A stretch of 63,661 nt of DNA, taken from contig JAAYVF010000061.1 in the NCBI GenBank assembly GCA_012517325.1, positions 1 to 63,661 on the forward strand, written 5' to 3'. Below are positions 11,247 to 19,711 of this stretch, piece after piece (the first letter of the stretch is position 1; each line of letters begins with the position of its first letter). The position numbers and the translations under genes were made by a program. This stretch comes from Myxococcales bacterium. GTDB lineage: Bacteria; Lernaellota; Lernaellaia; Lernaellales; Lernaellaceae. The notes below the pieces were generated by a model. It was not told where the DNA came from, ran no database searches, and was given only the letters and a program-made list of their open reading frames with translations.

Positions 11247-12263
11247 GTGACCGACATCAAGCAAGCCCTTCCCGTCTACGGAACCGACCTGATCCCGACT
11301 CTCGATCAACGGTACTTTGACGATTGCGTGGTTTTTTGCGCGCCGGAGGCGTGGAATATCGCCAAGCACCAATTCAAATTTCCGCCGAAGGAAATCGCCG
11401 TTCCCAAGGAAATGGAGCAGGCGCGCCTCGAACGCCGCATCCAACGCATGCCGCAAAGCGAAACGGTTTTCGGCATCGGCGGCGGCAGCGCCTGCGACGC
11501 GGCCAAGCTCTTCGCTCATTTGACGCACGCCAGGTTGATTCTCGTCCCCTCGATTTTAAGTGTGGATGCGCCCTTCACCAAAGCGATCGGCGTGCGCGTC
11601 AACCACCGGGTGCGGTACGTCGGCGAGGTCTATCCCGATCATCTGCTGATCGACTTCAACCTGATCCGTCAGGCGCCGCCGAAGCTGAACCGCGCCGGCG
11701 TCGGCGACATTCTGTCGATTTATACGGCGCTCAGTGATTGGCGGCTGGCGCATCAGGCGACGGGCGAAGCGTTCGACGAAACGCTCGCCGGGCAATCCCA
11801 GGCGCTTCTGGATCGGCTGTTTGCCGGCGCGACGGCGATCCGCGATTGCACCGACGAGGGTTTGAAGTTGCTGTCCGAACTGTACGTCGCGGAAGTGGCG
11901 CTGTGCGAAATCGCCGGCAACAGTCGCCCCGAGGAAGGCTCCGAACACTATTTCGCCTACTGTCTCGAATCGCTGACCCACAAACAGTATCTCCACGGCG
12001 AATTGATCGCACTCGGCGTGTTGCTCGGCGCGCTTTATCAGGAACAGCCGCTGGATCGCATTCTTGCCTTCCTTCATGAAACGCAGGTCGAATACCGGCC
12101 GGCGGCAATCGGCGTTACCGACGAGGAGATCTGCCATACATTGATCGCGTTGCCGCAATACCTGACGGAAGAACGGCAATTGCCCTACGGCATCTACCAC
12201 CACAAAGGCATGACGCCGGAAAGCGCGGATGCCTTGCTGAACCGCCTTCATTCGGTAATCTAA
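11247..12263 (+). CDS. Glycerol-1-phosphate dehydrogenase family protein (EgsA/AraM-like)
   Basis: Predicted NAD(P)H-dependent reductase of dihydroxyacetone phosphate to sn-glycerol-1-phosphate. The 338 residues show the nucleotide-binding GIGGGSACDAAKL, then VPSILSVDAPFTKA, GVGDILSIYTALSDWRLA, NSRPEEGSEHYFAY and HGELIALGVL. The Asp of GVGD and the two His residues of SEH and HGE are the expected metal ligands. GTG at 11247 follows GAGGAG. The AraM-like core motifs argue against an ordinary iron alcohol dehydrogenase. In bacteria such enzymes make archaeal-type glycerophosphate for lipids or other glycerol-phosphate compounds; which applies here is unknown. It stands alone between a terminator and an AT-rich gap. 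Confidence 0.8.
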   Translation: MTDIKQALPVYGTDLIPTLDQRYFDDCVVFCAPEAWNIAKHQFKFPPKEIAVPKEMEQARLERRIQRMPQSETVFGIGGGSACDAAKLFAHLTHARLILVPSILSVDAPFTKAIGVRVNHRVRYVGEVYPDHLLIDFNLIRQAPPKLNRAGVGDILSIYTALSDWRLAHQATGEAFDETLAGQSQALLDRLFAGATAIRDCTDEGLKLLSELYVAEVALCEIAGNSRPEEGSEHYFAYCLESLTHKQYLHGELIALGVLLGALYQEQPLDRILAFLHETQVEYRPAAIGVTDEEICHTLIALPQYLTEERQLPYGIYHHKGMTPESADALLNRLHSVI

Positions 12264-13619: not shown

Positions 13620-14789
13620 ATGACGCCCACACCGCCGCATTCCCGTTCGCAAACCGATTGGCTGCCCAGCCTGATCGTCGGCGGTTACGGCCTGTTCACC
13701 TCGGTGATGTTCTTTTTCATGCCGATTTATTTCGCCGACGAATTGGGTTTCAGCGGCATTCAGATCGGGCAATTGTATTCCGTGCTCGCCCTGGCCGGAT
13801 TTCTGGCCGCCCTGCCCGCCGGCCTGGGCAACGACCGCCTCACCAGCCGTTCGCTAATCATCGGCGCGCTCGTGGTGCAAGGCGGGGCGCTGTTTCTGCT
13901 CAACCGCGTCTCGCTGTTTCCGGTGGTCCTGGCCATCTACTTCGTCTGGTCGATCACCAACAATGTCTTCCGGCTCAGCGCCGAAATGCAAATGCTGAAA
14001 TCGGATACCGGCGAACGGACGAGCCAACGGATGAGCCTGTTTCTGGCTTGCCGGTTCGGCGGCCTGGCGATCGGGACCTTTTTCGCCGGTTACGTGCTGT
14101 ACCGGCTCGATTTTCGCGGCACGTTTCTGTTGATCGGCCTGTTCTGCCTGTTTTTGATCGTCCCGGCGTATCGCCTCGCACCGACGCCGATCGCGAAAAA
14201 CCGGCTGTCGGCCTATTGGGGCGATCTGAAATCCTGGCCGGTGATCCTCTTCATCGGTTGGATGTTCCTGTTCACCACGCATTGGGGTGTGGAATACACC
14301 TGCTACGGCTTGTTTCTCAAACGCGAGTTGCACCTGTCGCTGACGCAGATGGGCCACTACATGTGCGTCGAATACCTTGCCGTGCTGGCGACCGCGCTGC
14401 TGATCGGTCCGCGGATGGGCCGGCCCGGCGCGCTTACGGCTTACGGCATCGCCGGCCTGCTGCTTTCGGGAGTCGGCCACATCGGCATGGTGAACCACCA
14501 CGTCGCCGTCTCGCTCGCCTTTCGCGCCTTGCACGGCGTCGGTGACGGCATCATCATGGTGCTGACCTATCTGGGAATCGCCCGCCTGTTCGACGTCAAC
14601 CGCATGGGCGGCAACGCGGGCGCGATCAATCTGGCGATGACCCTGGGAATGATCACCGGCGCGTTGATCGCCGGGCCGCTCGGCGAAAAAGTCCGCTATA
14701 GCCTGCCGATCTGGGTGAGCGGCATCCTGCTCTTGTTGCTGGCCTTGCCGTTGGTGGCGAAAACCCGCCTGGGAAAGCGATTCGGTTAG
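13620..14789 (+). CDS. MFS transporter
   Basis: A 389-residue integral membrane protein with about twelve hydrophobic segments and the basic cytoplasmic loop GNDRLTSRS after the second segment, typical of the major facilitator superfamily. TTHWGVEYTCYGLFLKRELHLS in the second half resembles MFS_1-type nucleoside/sugar carriers (cut here to describe, not to assign). Substrate cannot be read from sequence. AAGGGATGG precedes the ATG at 13620. Its stop overlaps by four bases, tail to tail, with the minus-strand gene that follows, so no room exists for a separate terminator. Confidence 0.8.
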   Translation: MTPTPPHSRSQTDWLPSLIVGGYGLFTSVMFFFMPIYFADELGFSGIQIGQLYSVLALAGFLAALPAGLGNDRLTSRSLIIGALVVQGGALFLLNRVSLFPVVLAIYFVWSITNNVFRLSAEMQMLKSDTGERTSQRMSLFLACRFGGLAIGTFFAGYVLYRLDFRGTFLLIGLFCLFLIVPAYRLAPTPIAKNRLSAYWGDLKSWPVILFIGWMFLFTTHWGVEYTCYGLFLKRELHLSLTQMGHYMCVEYLAVLATALLIGPRMGRPGALTAYGIAGLLLSGVGHIGMVNHHVAVSLAFRALHGVGDGIIMVLTYLGIARLFDVNRMGGNAGAINLAMTLGMITGALIAGPLGEKVRYSLPIWVSGILLLLLALPLVAKTRLGKRFG

Positions 14790-15862
14790 TCGAACGACGG
14801 CGTGAATGGGTTGCGTTTTTCCAGCAGCGCCAGGATCTTGTTGATGGCGCCGCGGCTGGTGATCAACGAGGCATGGCCGCCTTCGATGAGCAAATTGTGC
14901 GCGCCGGCCAGCGTGGCGCTGTCGGGGGTGACGAAAAAATCCTCGCGCGCGGCCACGCAGTGGATTTCCACGTCGGCCGGCAACGGTCCCTCATGCAATT
15001 CGTTGAGGAACGTCGAGCCCGGCGTCATCTGCCAGAGCGTCTTGTAGAACGGCGCGAACAGCGCCAGCCCGGGTACGGTCATGTAGGTGCCGTGGAACGG
15101 CGAACCGACGGCGATCAGGCGGTTCACGTATTTTCCGAGGTCCAGTTTTTTCAAGCCCCATAAGGCGATCAGACCGCCCATCGAATGCGCCAGCGCACTG
15201 ATGCGGACGCCGCCCATCCGCGCGGAAAGCTTCGCCACCTTGGCGGTCAGCAGTTCGCTGCTTTTTTCGATCGAACCGACGTTCAGCAGGCCCAGATCGA
15301 TGGAAAGGACGGGAAAGCCTTCCAGCTTCAGCCGGCGCTCCAGAAAACGGAGCACGCCGCGTGTGCCCAGCCAGCCGTGGATCAACAGAACCGGCTGGCG
15401 AAAACCGGCGCTCGGCTCGCCGAATTCCCGACTATCGACCAGGTTGCCGTGGATTTCGCCCCAGGCATACAACAGCACGTTGACGGCCTGCTCGAGATTC
15501 ATCACCTGCATGTGCAACGCGTAGCGCGCCATTTCCTTCGCGGTCAACGTTTTGGGCTGGACGAAGAGAAACCGCAACCCCATGCAGACGCCACCGTTCC
15601 CTCGGCATTCGTCACCCTTGACGTGAATTACTTCGGCGCGACCGATAAACGGGCGCAGGTCGTCCATCAGGGTGAATTCGAAATCGACGATCGTCCCCTC
15701 CGACCAGGGTTTCTCCACCCGCACCCGCATGCCGCTGGCGCTGATGTCGCCCACTTCGGCGGTGAGGTGCTGGTCCCGATGGCGCAGGTGTGCGTTCAAG
15801 ACGGTGGTTACCGGCACCCGCGGAAACGAACGTCGTTCGAGAATGTTGCGTGGATTGCTCAT
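14786..15862 (-). CDS. PilZ domain fused to an alpha/beta hydrolase
   Basis: The 358-residue protein starts with a PilZ domain (about 8-118) holding both c-di-GMP contact motifs: R11-S-F-P-R15 and D39-I-S41-A-S-G44. A lipase-type alpha/beta hydrolase follows from about 155, with LLIHGWLG (oxyanion region, 159-166), nucleophile S227 in AHSMGG, and a likely catalytic His in EGGHASLI near the C-terminus. No signal peptide is seen, so it should be cytoplasmic. The ATG at 15862 starts two bases after the stop of the upstream dehydrogenase; a longer frame to 16021 only reads through that gene. Inferred role: a lipid or ester hydrolase switched by c-di-GMP. Confidence 0.88.
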   Translation of the reverse strand: MSNPRNILERRSFPRVPVTTVLNAHLRHRDQHLTAEVGDISASGMRVRVEKPWSEGTIVDFEFTLMDDLRPFIGRAEVIHVKGDECRGNGGVCMGLRFLFVQPKTLTAKEMARYALHMQVMNLEQAVNVLLYAWGEIHGNLVDSREFGEPSAGFRQPVLLIHGWLGTRGVLRFLERRLKLEGFPVLSIDLGLLNVGSIEKSSELLTAKVAKLSARMGGVRISALAHSMGGLIALWGLKKLDLGKYVNRLIAVGSPFHGTYMTVPGLALFAPFYKTLWQMTPGSTFLNELHEGPLPADVEIHCVAAREDFFVTPDSATLAGAHNLLIEGGHASLITSRGAINKILALLEKRNPFTPSFD

Positions 15863-15864
15863 GG

Positions 15865-16806
15865 TTACGGCATATCGATCAGTATTTTTAAATTTTTCGG
15901 TTGTCGCGCCGCCTCGAACGCCGCGACGGCCTCGTCGAAAGTATAGGTCGATGAAATCAAATCCGCAACTTGCACCCGTCCGGCCGCCAGGTGTCGCAAC
16001 GCCGGCACGAAGGAGCCGCAACGGCTGCCGAGCACCGTGATTTCGTCGATCACCAGGGGCGCGGGATTGAAATCGAACGAACCGGCGTAGGTCGATTTCA
16101 GCACCACCGTGCCGCGCGGCCGCACCGCCTTGAGCGCCAGGTTCCAGCCGCCGGCCTGGCCGGAAGCCTCGATCACAATGTCGAAATCGCGCCGGGGATA
16201 AAAATCCGCCTCGACGAGCCGTTCGGTCGCTGGCAATTTCGCCAGTTTTTCCGGATGATGGCCCACCGCGACCAACTCGACGCCGTACAACGCCAGAACC
16301 CGCGCGATCAACACGGCCAGTTTGCCGTCGCCGATCAGGCAGACGCGGTCGATCGGCCGCAGATGCAATTGCTCGGGAATTTCGAGCGCCGCCGCCAGCG
16401 GTTCGACAAAAACCGCCTCATGGTTTTTCACATCCGCGGGCACTTCGTGCAGGTTCGCGGCGGGCAACGAGAGGAATTCGGCCAGGGCGCCGTCGCGGCC
16501 CAGGATGCCCAGGACAGTCCGGTTCAGGCAGTGGCGGGGCAGATTCTGGCGGCAAGATGGGCAATCGCCGCAGCCGACGTTGATTTCGCCGACCACTCGC
16601 CGGTCCACCCACTCGCTCGGCCCCTCCTCCACCACGCCGACGAATTCGTGGCCCAGAACGCCGCGAAAACCCATGTAACCGGCGGTGATTTCCAAATCGG
16701 TATTGCAGATGCCGACTTTTTTCACCCGGATCAGACATTCGCCGGTGTGGCGCGGCAGAGGCCGGTCGACCCAGGTCAGCGCGCGATCGAAAACGAGCGC
16801 CCGCAT
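15865..16806 (-). CDS. Medium-chain zinc-dependent alcohol dehydrogenase family protein
   Basis: NAD(P)-dependent oxidoreductase of the MDR superfamily, 313 residues. GHEFVGVVEEG is the catalytic-domain hallmark, and CGDCPSCRQNLPRHC carries four cysteines for the structural zinc. The nucleotide domain has GDGKLAVLIARVLALYGVE. It resembles threonine/polyol dehydrogenases, but the substrate is unknown. It is short for the family because the N-terminal strand region is compact. Start choice is between GTG at 16809 and ATG at 16806, both overlapping the stop of the small membrane gene upstream. It sits in a tight minus-strand run with the PilZ-hydrolase. Confidence 0.85.
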   Translation of the reverse strand: MRALVFDRALTWVDRPLPRHTGECLIRVKKVGICNTDLEITAGYMGFRGVLGHEFVGVVEEGPSEWVDRRVVGEINVGCGDCPSCRQNLPRHCLNRTVLGILGRDGALAEFLSLPAANLHEVPADVKNHEAVFVEPLAAALEIPEQLHLRPIDRVCLIGDGKLAVLIARVLALYGVELVAVGHHPEKLAKLPATERLVEADFYPRRDFDIVIEASGQAGGWNLALKAVRPRGTVVLKSTYAGSFDFNPAPLVIDEITVLGSRCGSFVPALRHLAAGRVQVADLISSTYTFDEAVAAFEAARQPKNLKILIDMP

Positions 16807-17114
16807 CACCAGGGGCCCGCGCCCGCCCGAAAGAGATCGGCGGGATCGACGTCGAAGGTGATGCCGAAAACGCTGGAGAGGATCATGAAAATCAAGCCGA
16901 GGGCGACGAGCAAAATCGCCATGGAAACCAGCCCGACGCCGCCGAGCAAGGCAATGGAGATCAACCCGGCGGCGGTGACCAGCACGGTCACCATGCCCTT
17001 GTCGGCGTAGGGCGCGACCGGCGAGATGACCATCAGCGCCTCGGTCATTTCGCGGGTCTGGCCGGTCGCTTTTTCGTAGATTTCATGCAACTGCTCGCGC
17101 CACCGATGATCCAT
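16806..17114 (-). CDS. Small membrane protein of unknown function
   Basis: A 102-residue protein with a charged N-terminal helix (WREQLHEIYEKATGQ) and two adjacent hydrophobic segments at about 41-62 and 64-85, followed by a short acidic tail. No family was recognised. AGGAAAGGAA lies before the ATG. It overlaps the dehydrogenase start and follows the HD-domain gene by 13 bases, so it is co-transcribed with them. Confidence 0.7.
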   Translation of the reverse strand: MDHRWREQLHEIYEKATGQTREMTEALMVISPVAPYADKGMVTVLVTAAGLISIALLGGVGLVSMAILLVALGLIFMILSSVFGITFDVDPADLFRAGAGPW

Positions 17115-17127
17115 GCTTGTTCCTTTC

Positions 17128-17703
17128 CTACAAACCCAATTGATCGGCGATCCGGGTCATGGAAGCCAGACTGGATTCCAGGAACTCCGCCAGCGGCACG
17201 CCGATCGTTTCGCATTCGGCGATGATTGCCCGATCGGCGCCGGCGGCGAAGAGTTTTTCCTTGTAGCGCTTCGCCACGCTTTTTGGTTTCACCGAGGCCA
17301 ACTTTTTGTCCGGATATACCAGCGCCGTGGCGATGATCAAGCCCGTGACGGTTTCCGCGGCGGCCAAGGCGTGTTCGTAGGTCGTGGCGCGCGGGAGGCC
17401 GAGGGCGTCGTTGTGCTTGCGAATGGCCAGCGTGATTTCCGGATGAACGCCCAGCGCGTCCAGCCAGCCGGCCCCCACTTCGGCGTGGCGGCGCATGTCG
17501 TCGCCGACCTCGCCCAGGTCGATGTCGTGCAGCAAGCCGCCGATGCCCCAGAATTCGGGATCCGCGCCGAAACGCGGCGCCAGATCGCGCAGAATGGCCT
17601 CGGTCGCCAGGCAGTGATTGATCAGCCGGGGCTGGCCGGCCAGTTTTTCCGCGAGCAGCGCGTACGCGTTTTCCCGGGTGATCCCCGCCGATTTCTCGGT
17701 CAT
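17128..17703 (-). CDS. HD-domain phosphohydrolase-like protein (HDIG type)
   Basis: A 191-residue single-domain HD protein. The predicted metal ligands H30 (NHCLATE), H59-D60 (GLLHDIDLGE) and the following HAEVG/KHND histidines are present. Relatives hydrolyse phosphates of nucleotides or cyclic nucleotides; the substrate here is unknown. I chose the ATG at 17703 because GGAGGA lies seven bases upstream; a longer frame to 17769 adds residues with no domain. It is the first gene of a four-gene minus-strand run (HD, small membrane protein, dehydrogenase, PilZ-hydrolase) and faces another HD gene across 125 bases. Confidence 0.82.
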   Translation of the reverse strand: MTEKSAGITRENAYALLAEKLAGQPRLINHCLATEAILRDLAPRFGADPEFWGIGGLLHDIDLGEVGDDMRRHAEVGAGWLDALGVHPEITLAIRKHNDALGLPRATTYEHALAAAETVTGLIIATALVYPDKKLASVKPKSVAKRYKEKLFAAGADRAIIAECETIGVPLAEFLESSLASMTRIADQLGL

Positions 17704-17828
17704 CGCGTCTTCCTCCGGTTGCGTCGACATCGTACCGGAGGGGACCGGAGCGTCGCAACCCCGCATCACCGGTTGCGCGGATTCCGCCGCCGTTTATCAT
17801 GGCGGTTCAACCCGCGAACGGAGGCGCC

Positions 17829-18517: not shown

Positions 18518-19711
18518 ATGAAAACCATTCAAGCCGCCGCCGCCAAAGTCGATATTACGCCGTATCTGGTGACAAAAACCTACCTGGCCGGGTTCGCGCC
18601 CAACCGCCTGGCGACGGGCGTCGCCGAGCCGCTGTGCGCCCGAATCCTATATCTGGAAGACGAAAACGGCCCGCTGGTCTGGATCGCCACCGATCTCATC
18701 GGTTTCCTGTACGGCGACATCGATGACTTGCGCGCCAAATTGCCGGAGATCGCGCCCGAACGGTTGTTTGCCTGCGCCACGCACACGCACTCCGGGCCTG
18801 ACACCATGGGATTGTGGGGGCCGTCCGTCGGGCCGGTGCCGGTGAAAAGCGGTCGCGACCCGGAATACCTCAAGTGGATGGTGGAACAAATCGCGACGGG
18901 CGTCCGGCGGGCGCAAGCGCGGAAGCAGCCGGCGGTCATCGGTTGCGGCGAGGATCTCAGCGAGAAAAGCGAATGGGTCGTGAACATCCGCCAGAAAGGC
19001 TATAACGACCAGGCCCTGACCGTGATGCGCGTCGACGGCCTCGCCGGCGAACCCATCGCCTGTCTGGTGAATTTCGCCTGCCACCCGGAAACGCTGTGGG
19101 AAAAGAACACGGACATTTCCCCGGACTTCGTCCATCACCTGCTGCGCACCGTGGAAGAAGCCTCCGGCGCCGTCGGCATCTATATCAGCGGCGCGCTCGG
19201 GGGCATGGTAACGTCTTCCCTGCCCGACGAAACGCCGCTGGCCGAACGCCGCGTCTTCTACCGCAAGATGGGCAAGGCGCTGGGCAAGATCGCCGCCGCC
19301 ACCTGGAAATCCATTTCGCCGGAAGCCGTGGAAAAGATCACGCACCGCTATCATTGCGGTTTGTTTCCCTTCGACAACAAGGTTTTGTTCTTTATGAAAA
19401 ACCTGGGAATTCTAAACCGCGAAATGACCGACGACCGGATTTTCACCCGGATCGACTACTGGAAGATCGGCCCGGCCGAATTCGTCAGCCTGCCGGGCGA
19501 AGCGCTACCCGCCGTGGGTTTCAAGGTCAAACGCCTGATGCACGGCAAACCGAATTTCCTTTTCTGTCTGGGTAACGACGAATTGGGCTATCTCCTTGAC
19601 GAGCAGCTTTGGTCCGACCCGAAGTACCATTACGAAAAGACGGTATCGGTCGGCCCTGCGGCGGTCGAACAATTCTATCGCCTCATCGCCGAGCTCGTGG
19701 CTGATCAATGA
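18518..19711 (+). CDS. Neutral/alkaline ceramidase-like N-terminal domain protein
   Basis: The 397 residues contain DITPYLVTKTYLAGF at the start, the metal-site segment ACATHTHSGPDT, NFACHPETL and SGALGGM, all in the order seen in neutral ceramidase N-terminal domains. The much larger true ceramidases have an extra C-terminal Ig-like domain, missing here. No signal peptide is visible, so it appears cytoplasmic, unlike secreted ceramidases. Many bacterial members of this group are probably amidases of unknown substrate. Its stop overlaps the coaE start (ATGA), which couples their translation. Confidence 0.78.
   Translation: MKTIQAAAAKVDITPYLVTKTYLAGFAPNRLATGVAEPLCARILYLEDENGPLVWIATDLIGFLYGDIDDLRAKLPEIAPERLFACATHTHSGPDTMGLWGPSVGPVPVKSGRDPEYLKWMVEQIATGVRRAQARKQPAVIGCGEDLSEKSEWVVNIRQKGYNDQALTVMRVDGLAGEPIACLVNFACHPETLWEKNTDISPDFVHHLLRTVEEASGAVGIYISGALGGMVTSSLPDETPLAERRVFYRKMGKALGKIAAATWKSISPEAVEKITHRYHCGLFPFDNKVLFFMKNLGILNREMTDDRIFTRIDYWKIGPAEFVSLPGEALPAVGFKVKRLMHGKPNFLFCLGNDELGYLLDEQLWSDPKYHYEKTVSVGPAAVEQFYRLIAELVADQ

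Follow-up and report, generated by a model that had tools for sequence, protein, structure and literature searches.

The stretch of DNA analysed here (the window, 63,661 nucleotides) carries on its minus strand a gene (14786..15862) whose 358-aa product joins a PilZ domain to an alpha/beta hydrolase. The open reading frame, for which the initial annotation gave no strand, begins with an ATG at 15862 and ends with a stop codon at 14786-14788. It is the last of a minus-strand run of four genes headed by an HD-domain protein (17128..17769; Pfam HD, 2.6e-10), followed by a 102-aa protein with two hydrophobic helices (16806..17114) and a zinc-type medium-chain dehydrogenase (15865..16809; Pfam ADH_N, 6e-19), and the fusion ATG lies two bases past the stop codon of the dehydrogenase gene. 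On the plus strand, a convergent gene for an MFS transporter (13620..14789) shares its last 4 bases with the end of the fusion gene. Two other plus-strand genes of the window were also recorded: 18518-19711 encodes a 397-aa protein that matches neutral/alkaline ceramidase below the threshold and has about 61% identity to copies in two related genomes (G001 and G002), and 11247-12263 encodes an iron-containing alcohol dehydrogenase family protein which reads like a glycerol-1-phosphate dehydrogenase, has a 70% identical copy in G001 and could bear on membrane lipid chemistry.

The PilZ domain occupies residues 9-105 (15548..15838, minus strand) and matches Pfam PF07238 with 51.3 bits (E 1.6e-13, cut-off 22.5). 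The hydrolase domain spans residues 158-347 (14822..15391, minus strand); its Abhydrolase_6 match (residues 158-280) scored 27.6 bits, just over the cut-off of 26.3. AlphaFold modelled both folds with good confidence (pLDDT 88.3, pTM 0.89), the PilZ part as a six-stranded barrel with strands between residues 18 and 103, and placed between the domains a long helix (residues 108-138; 15449..15541, minus strand) followed by a poorly defined, low-confidence hinge (residues 139-157). Together, the Pfam matches to both domains and the modelled folds agree with the initial annotation, which had read the gene as one PilZ-hydrolase protein. A chance or artefactual fusion was ruled out by full-length copies in seven genomes, six of them without stops; the profile match in the remaining one (G003) shows stops only by running past its open reading frame, and that 351-aa frame is intact. 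No export signal was seen and the PilZ domain sits right at the N-terminus, so a cytosolic position of the enzyme is expected.

The nearest solved structures of the hydrolase half, both by sequence and by fold, are lipases: the Streptomyces enzymes 5h6b/5h6g, Candida antarctica lipase B and Bacillus lipase A. Foldseek aligned the model to the Streptomyces lipase 5h6g with an E value of 3e-13 and a TMt of 0.69, rising up to 0.86 for single-domain lipases. S227, proposed as the nucleophile in the initial annotation, lies within A-H-S-M-G-G, and this AHSMG elbow, which fits the G/A-x-S-x-G form, is known from Bacillus lipases. D308 and H330, which had not been named before, complete a lipase-type triad with it. 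The codons of S227 (15182..15184), D308 (14939..14941) and H330 (14873..14875), all on the minus strand, specify residues that are invariant in 28 aligned homologues from several phyla, as are G163, H226, G229, G230, P255 and G258, and the triad is unchanged in all seven fusions. This conservation, including that of H226, G229 and G230, speaks against a loss of catalysis or a purely structural role of the protein, an explanation that the hydrolase half's weak match to Pfam and the lack of a characterised close relative might otherwise favour and that we consider very improbable. The label of putative lipid hydrolase is taken from fold and triad only, with which ester, phospholipid, thioester and polyester substrates would all be compatible. 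Bacillus subtilis lipase A, 5h6g and Candida lipase B share this fold and triad; unlike the fusion they are secreted and lack a PilZ domain, and their identity to it is about 20-26%.

The window very probably comes from the uncultured phylum FEN-1099 (Ca. Lernaellota, Ca. Podoxiota), for which 7 genomes with sizes reaching 5.25 Mb have been listed (PMC11382960); the genome of the window measures 5.25 Mb. A search for the same domain pair elsewhere, as the initial annotation had recommended, recovered the full-length fusion in seven of the seven FEN-1099 genomes examined and in none of about 400 genomes sampled outside the phylum. Among the matches listed for 117 Myxococcota genomes none spans both PilZ and hydrolase, nor does any listed match in 290 genomes mostly of other phyla, the seven apart. 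The closest large set of homologues of the hydrolase comes from Myxococcota, where they are unfused. The seven fused proteins group as a single clade in the hydrolase tree (support 97/93), beside this myxococcal group, which makes one fusion event the simplest history and supports the view that the fusion probably arose once. The 31-residue helix that precedes the hydrolase domain also occurs in unfused homologues, whose matches begin at about residue 105-122; the closest ones among the 290 genomes (G257 and G391) start at this helix, near residue 105-118. The unfused myxococcal hydrolases (loci L048-L065) have about 30-42% identity to the fusion and the same helix ahead of the hydrolase domain, differing in that they lack the PilZ domain, an adjacent PilZ gene and the small membrane protein described below.

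Both c-di-GMP motifs reported for the PilZ domain by the initial annotation were found at their aligned PilZ positions: RxxxR as R11-S-F-P-R15 (15818..15832, minus strand) and DxSxxG as D39-I-S-A-S-G44 (15731..15748, minus strand). The latter also satisfies the stricter form [D/N]hSxxG given in PMC11800159. Since such a pair arises in 1.1% of shuffled copies of the same composition, the motifs alone would be modest evidence; far more weight falls on the profile score, the fold model and the conservation among relatives. An alignment of the seven fusions, with rows in the order window, G001, G002 and then four proteins from G003-G006, gave RRRKDDA in the column of R11, RRRNDSD in that of R15, DNDFLDR in that of D39 and GGGGEAG in that of G44. 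Every motif residue is therefore kept in the window, G001 and G002, all members of the window's family, and neither motif is intact in the fused PilZ of G003-G006, which make up four of the seven orthologues. Protein identity in the window's family is only 50-62%, yet the motifs of its three members are all complete. Nearly all of the stand-alone or tandem PilZ domains fetched from G003-G006 keep both motifs, which confines the loss to the fusion. With moderate support (90/85), the hydrolase tree sets the G003 protein next to the window's family, which would mean that the motifs were lost twice, or once if that fork is wrong.

Pfam still recognised the PilZ domain in nine of ten test-set members at E 0.05, the G003 domain being under the cut-off. 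This most degenerate domain yielded a low-confidence model (pLDDT 71) with the same six strands, the best matches of which were PilZ proteins (MrkH, MotI, PA4608) mixed with split-barrel flavoproteins; the model is compatible with a kept fold. No solved PilZ relative was found by sequence at E 0.1. According to these patterns, c-di-GMP binding competence appears specific to the window's family, where it is plausible, and direct c-di-GMP control of the enzyme in the sister families is unlikely. Because the motifs are lost in four of seven proteins while fusion and triad persist, c-di-GMP control is not the defining feature of the family, nor is it what keeps the two domains joined across the phylum. 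The genome of the window gave 18 GGDEF matches, pointing to c-di-GMP synthase genes, and 12 PilZ matches; with that many GGDEF matches, c-di-GMP is probably made in this organism.

The conserved neighbour of the fusion gene is the small membrane protein of about 100 aa, which had no Pfam match in its 102-aa form in the window. It is present as a single copy in all seven genomes of the phylum and is encoded upstream of the fusion in six of them, directly in five and with the dehydrogenase gene between in the window; in G003 it is encoded elsewhere. Six aligned copies show no internal gaps. Searched for in 34 genomes from other phyla, the protein did not turn up; nor was it present near unfused hydrolase homologues. 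It is likely to be a membrane partner or anchor of the fusion enzyme. The other neighbours were considered as parts of the system and set aside, as they are unconserved outside the window's family, save for the dehydrogenase, which adjoins the fusion elsewhere in G003 only. The HD-domain gene has the same place in G001 and G002 only, and in these two genomes, too, a convergent MFS gene overlaps the fusion gene, G001 having two tandem MFS genes (L021:9453-11806) where the window has one. In G005, a gene for an MmeI-like restriction-modification protein with an added DUF559 lies just upstream of the fusion neighbourhood (L025:2962-7146).

A PilZ gene was also found close to related hydrolases that are not fused. 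In another phylum, represented by G026 and its relatives, four of five full neighbourhoods of a sister-subfamily hydrolase contain, close to the hydrolase gene, a stand-alone PilZ gene whose motifs are intact (L119:7698-9293 in G026, L139, L140 and L141). The PilZ gene is adjacent in G026, G182 and G176, in the last of these on both sides (L141), about 4 kb away in G177 and absent in G181; in G026 the hydrolase gene itself stands behind electron-transfer flavoprotein genes (etfBA). These loci lend modest, separate support to the idea that such hydrolases are linked to PilZ signalling. No PilZ gene, as a Rosetta-stone pattern would have it, was present near the myxococcal hydrolases of L048-L065 or beside the unfused proteins of G257, G391 and G261 that are most closely related to the fusion.

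Fusions of PilZ with enzymes are known from cellulose synthase, PixB (an acetyltransferase) and Pkn1 (a kinase) (PMC8316039). PixB of Myxococcus xanthus resembles our protein in combining PilZ with an enzyme domain and differs in being a GNAT acetyltransferase with two PilZ domains; its c-di-GMP binding was shown and is needed for function during development (PMC8316039). PlpA of Myxococcus has intact motifs and was reported not to bind c-di-GMP (PMC8316039), so intact motifs are no proof of binding. Furthermore, the PilZ-DnaK proteins CsdK1 and CsdK2 (PMC10313047) and LIC_20173, a PilZ fused to a PrsW-type protease (PMC11800159), also carry an unusual working domain, although the partner domains are different. 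The closest known way of working is that of CapV, a patatin-like phospholipase activated by cGAMP (PMC6401482), in that a lipid hydrolase is switched directly by a cyclic dinucleotide. CapV has a patatin fold and no PilZ domain and receives its cGAMP from DncV encoded next door, making it a work-alike rather than a relative. Assignment to a CapV-type CBASS system does not fit our protein, which has the fold of lipases, and no CD-NTase was present among the immediate neighbours scanned. The open-access literature that we searched yielded no PilZ-alpha/beta-hydrolase fusion, in line with the earlier remark that such fusions are rarely described. Relative to that literature the architecture is new; both kinds of domain, and PilZ-enzyme fusions as such, were already known.

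Our preferred interpretation is a cytosolic ester or lipid hydrolase that acts at the membrane and, in the window's family, is gated by c-di-GMP through its PilZ domain, a proposal for which we regard the chances as evenly divided. The fusion product is an alpha/beta hydrolase of the lipase/esterase kind with the triad S227-D308-H330, and it probably works on the cytosolic face of the membrane, partnered by the small two-helix protein whose gene lies upstream. Among members of the window's family, its N-terminal PilZ domain probably binds c-di-GMP via R11, R15 and D39-x-S41-x-x-G44, and we infer that binding could shift the barrel against the helix 108-138 and the hinge. Such a shift might switch either the access to the active site or the docking at the membrane; as to the direction of control, we lean to a release of inhibition. 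Gating is favoured because complete motifs persist in three divergent members. The suggestion that a lipid hydrolase stands under direct control of c-di-GMP was the central one of the initial annotation. For the window's family it agrees with the intact motifs, the lipase-type triad and the GGDEF genes; extended to the other four orthologues, it is at odds with their lost motifs.

It is also quite possible, although we incline against it, that PilZ now serves chiefly for docking or as a structural part, keeping the hydrolase attached to the small membrane protein or to another partner, and that any c-di-GMP binding in the window's family is vestigial and does not affect catalysis. In the four orthologues that lack R11, R15 and the D/N-x-S-x-x-G motif, the PilZ domain is still recognisable and the triad is kept, three of them have the adjacent small membrane protein, and the confinement of motif loss to the fusion, in genomes whose other PilZ domains retain their motifs, points the same way. 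There are precedents in PlpA and in Pkn1, whose PilZ domain is predicted not to bind (PMC8316039). What weighs against this explanation is the window's family, where every motif residue is kept at 50-62% identity, suggesting that binding is still selected.

A role in exopolysaccharide metabolism, with an esterase acting on acyl or acetyl groups of glycans or of their lipid carriers and tuned through PilZ, appears improbable to us. Many exopolysaccharide systems are tuned through PilZ, and in G004 and G006 the genes for the small protein and the fusion stand directly behind a family-2 glycosyltransferase gene, at the end of an exopolysaccharide-like cluster (L024:315-8532 and L026:9336-16153) in which a Wzy_C O-antigen ligase, a FemAB-like transferase or a polysaccharide deacetylase is encoded. 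In addition, a gene for a membrane-bound O-acyltransferase faces the pair in G004. However, no such cluster adjoins the fusion in the window's family, the enzyme lacks an export signal and should face the cytosol, and in the genomes that have the cluster the fused PilZ lacks the c-di-GMP motifs.

Returning to the c-di-GMP-gated hydrolase, a broader version of this reading would see a membrane-remodelling switch across the whole phylum, in which a c-di-GMP-gated lipid hydrolase has a dedicated small-protein anchor and ligand control was kept in one family and lost elsewhere; we hold this as a doubtful extension. The known outputs of c-di-GMP are so far mostly motility, polysaccharide synthesis and transcription. 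If our interpretation is true, direct control of a lipase-type enzyme would connect c-di-GMP with lipids or the turnover of membranes, in the way that CapV does for cGAMP. The small membrane protein provides a concrete partner candidate for testing, and the seven orthologues, with three intact and four broken sets of motifs on one conserved enzyme, make the role of the PilZ domain testable by comparison. If gating holds, these proteins would be a natural series showing how PilZ control is built and abandoned.
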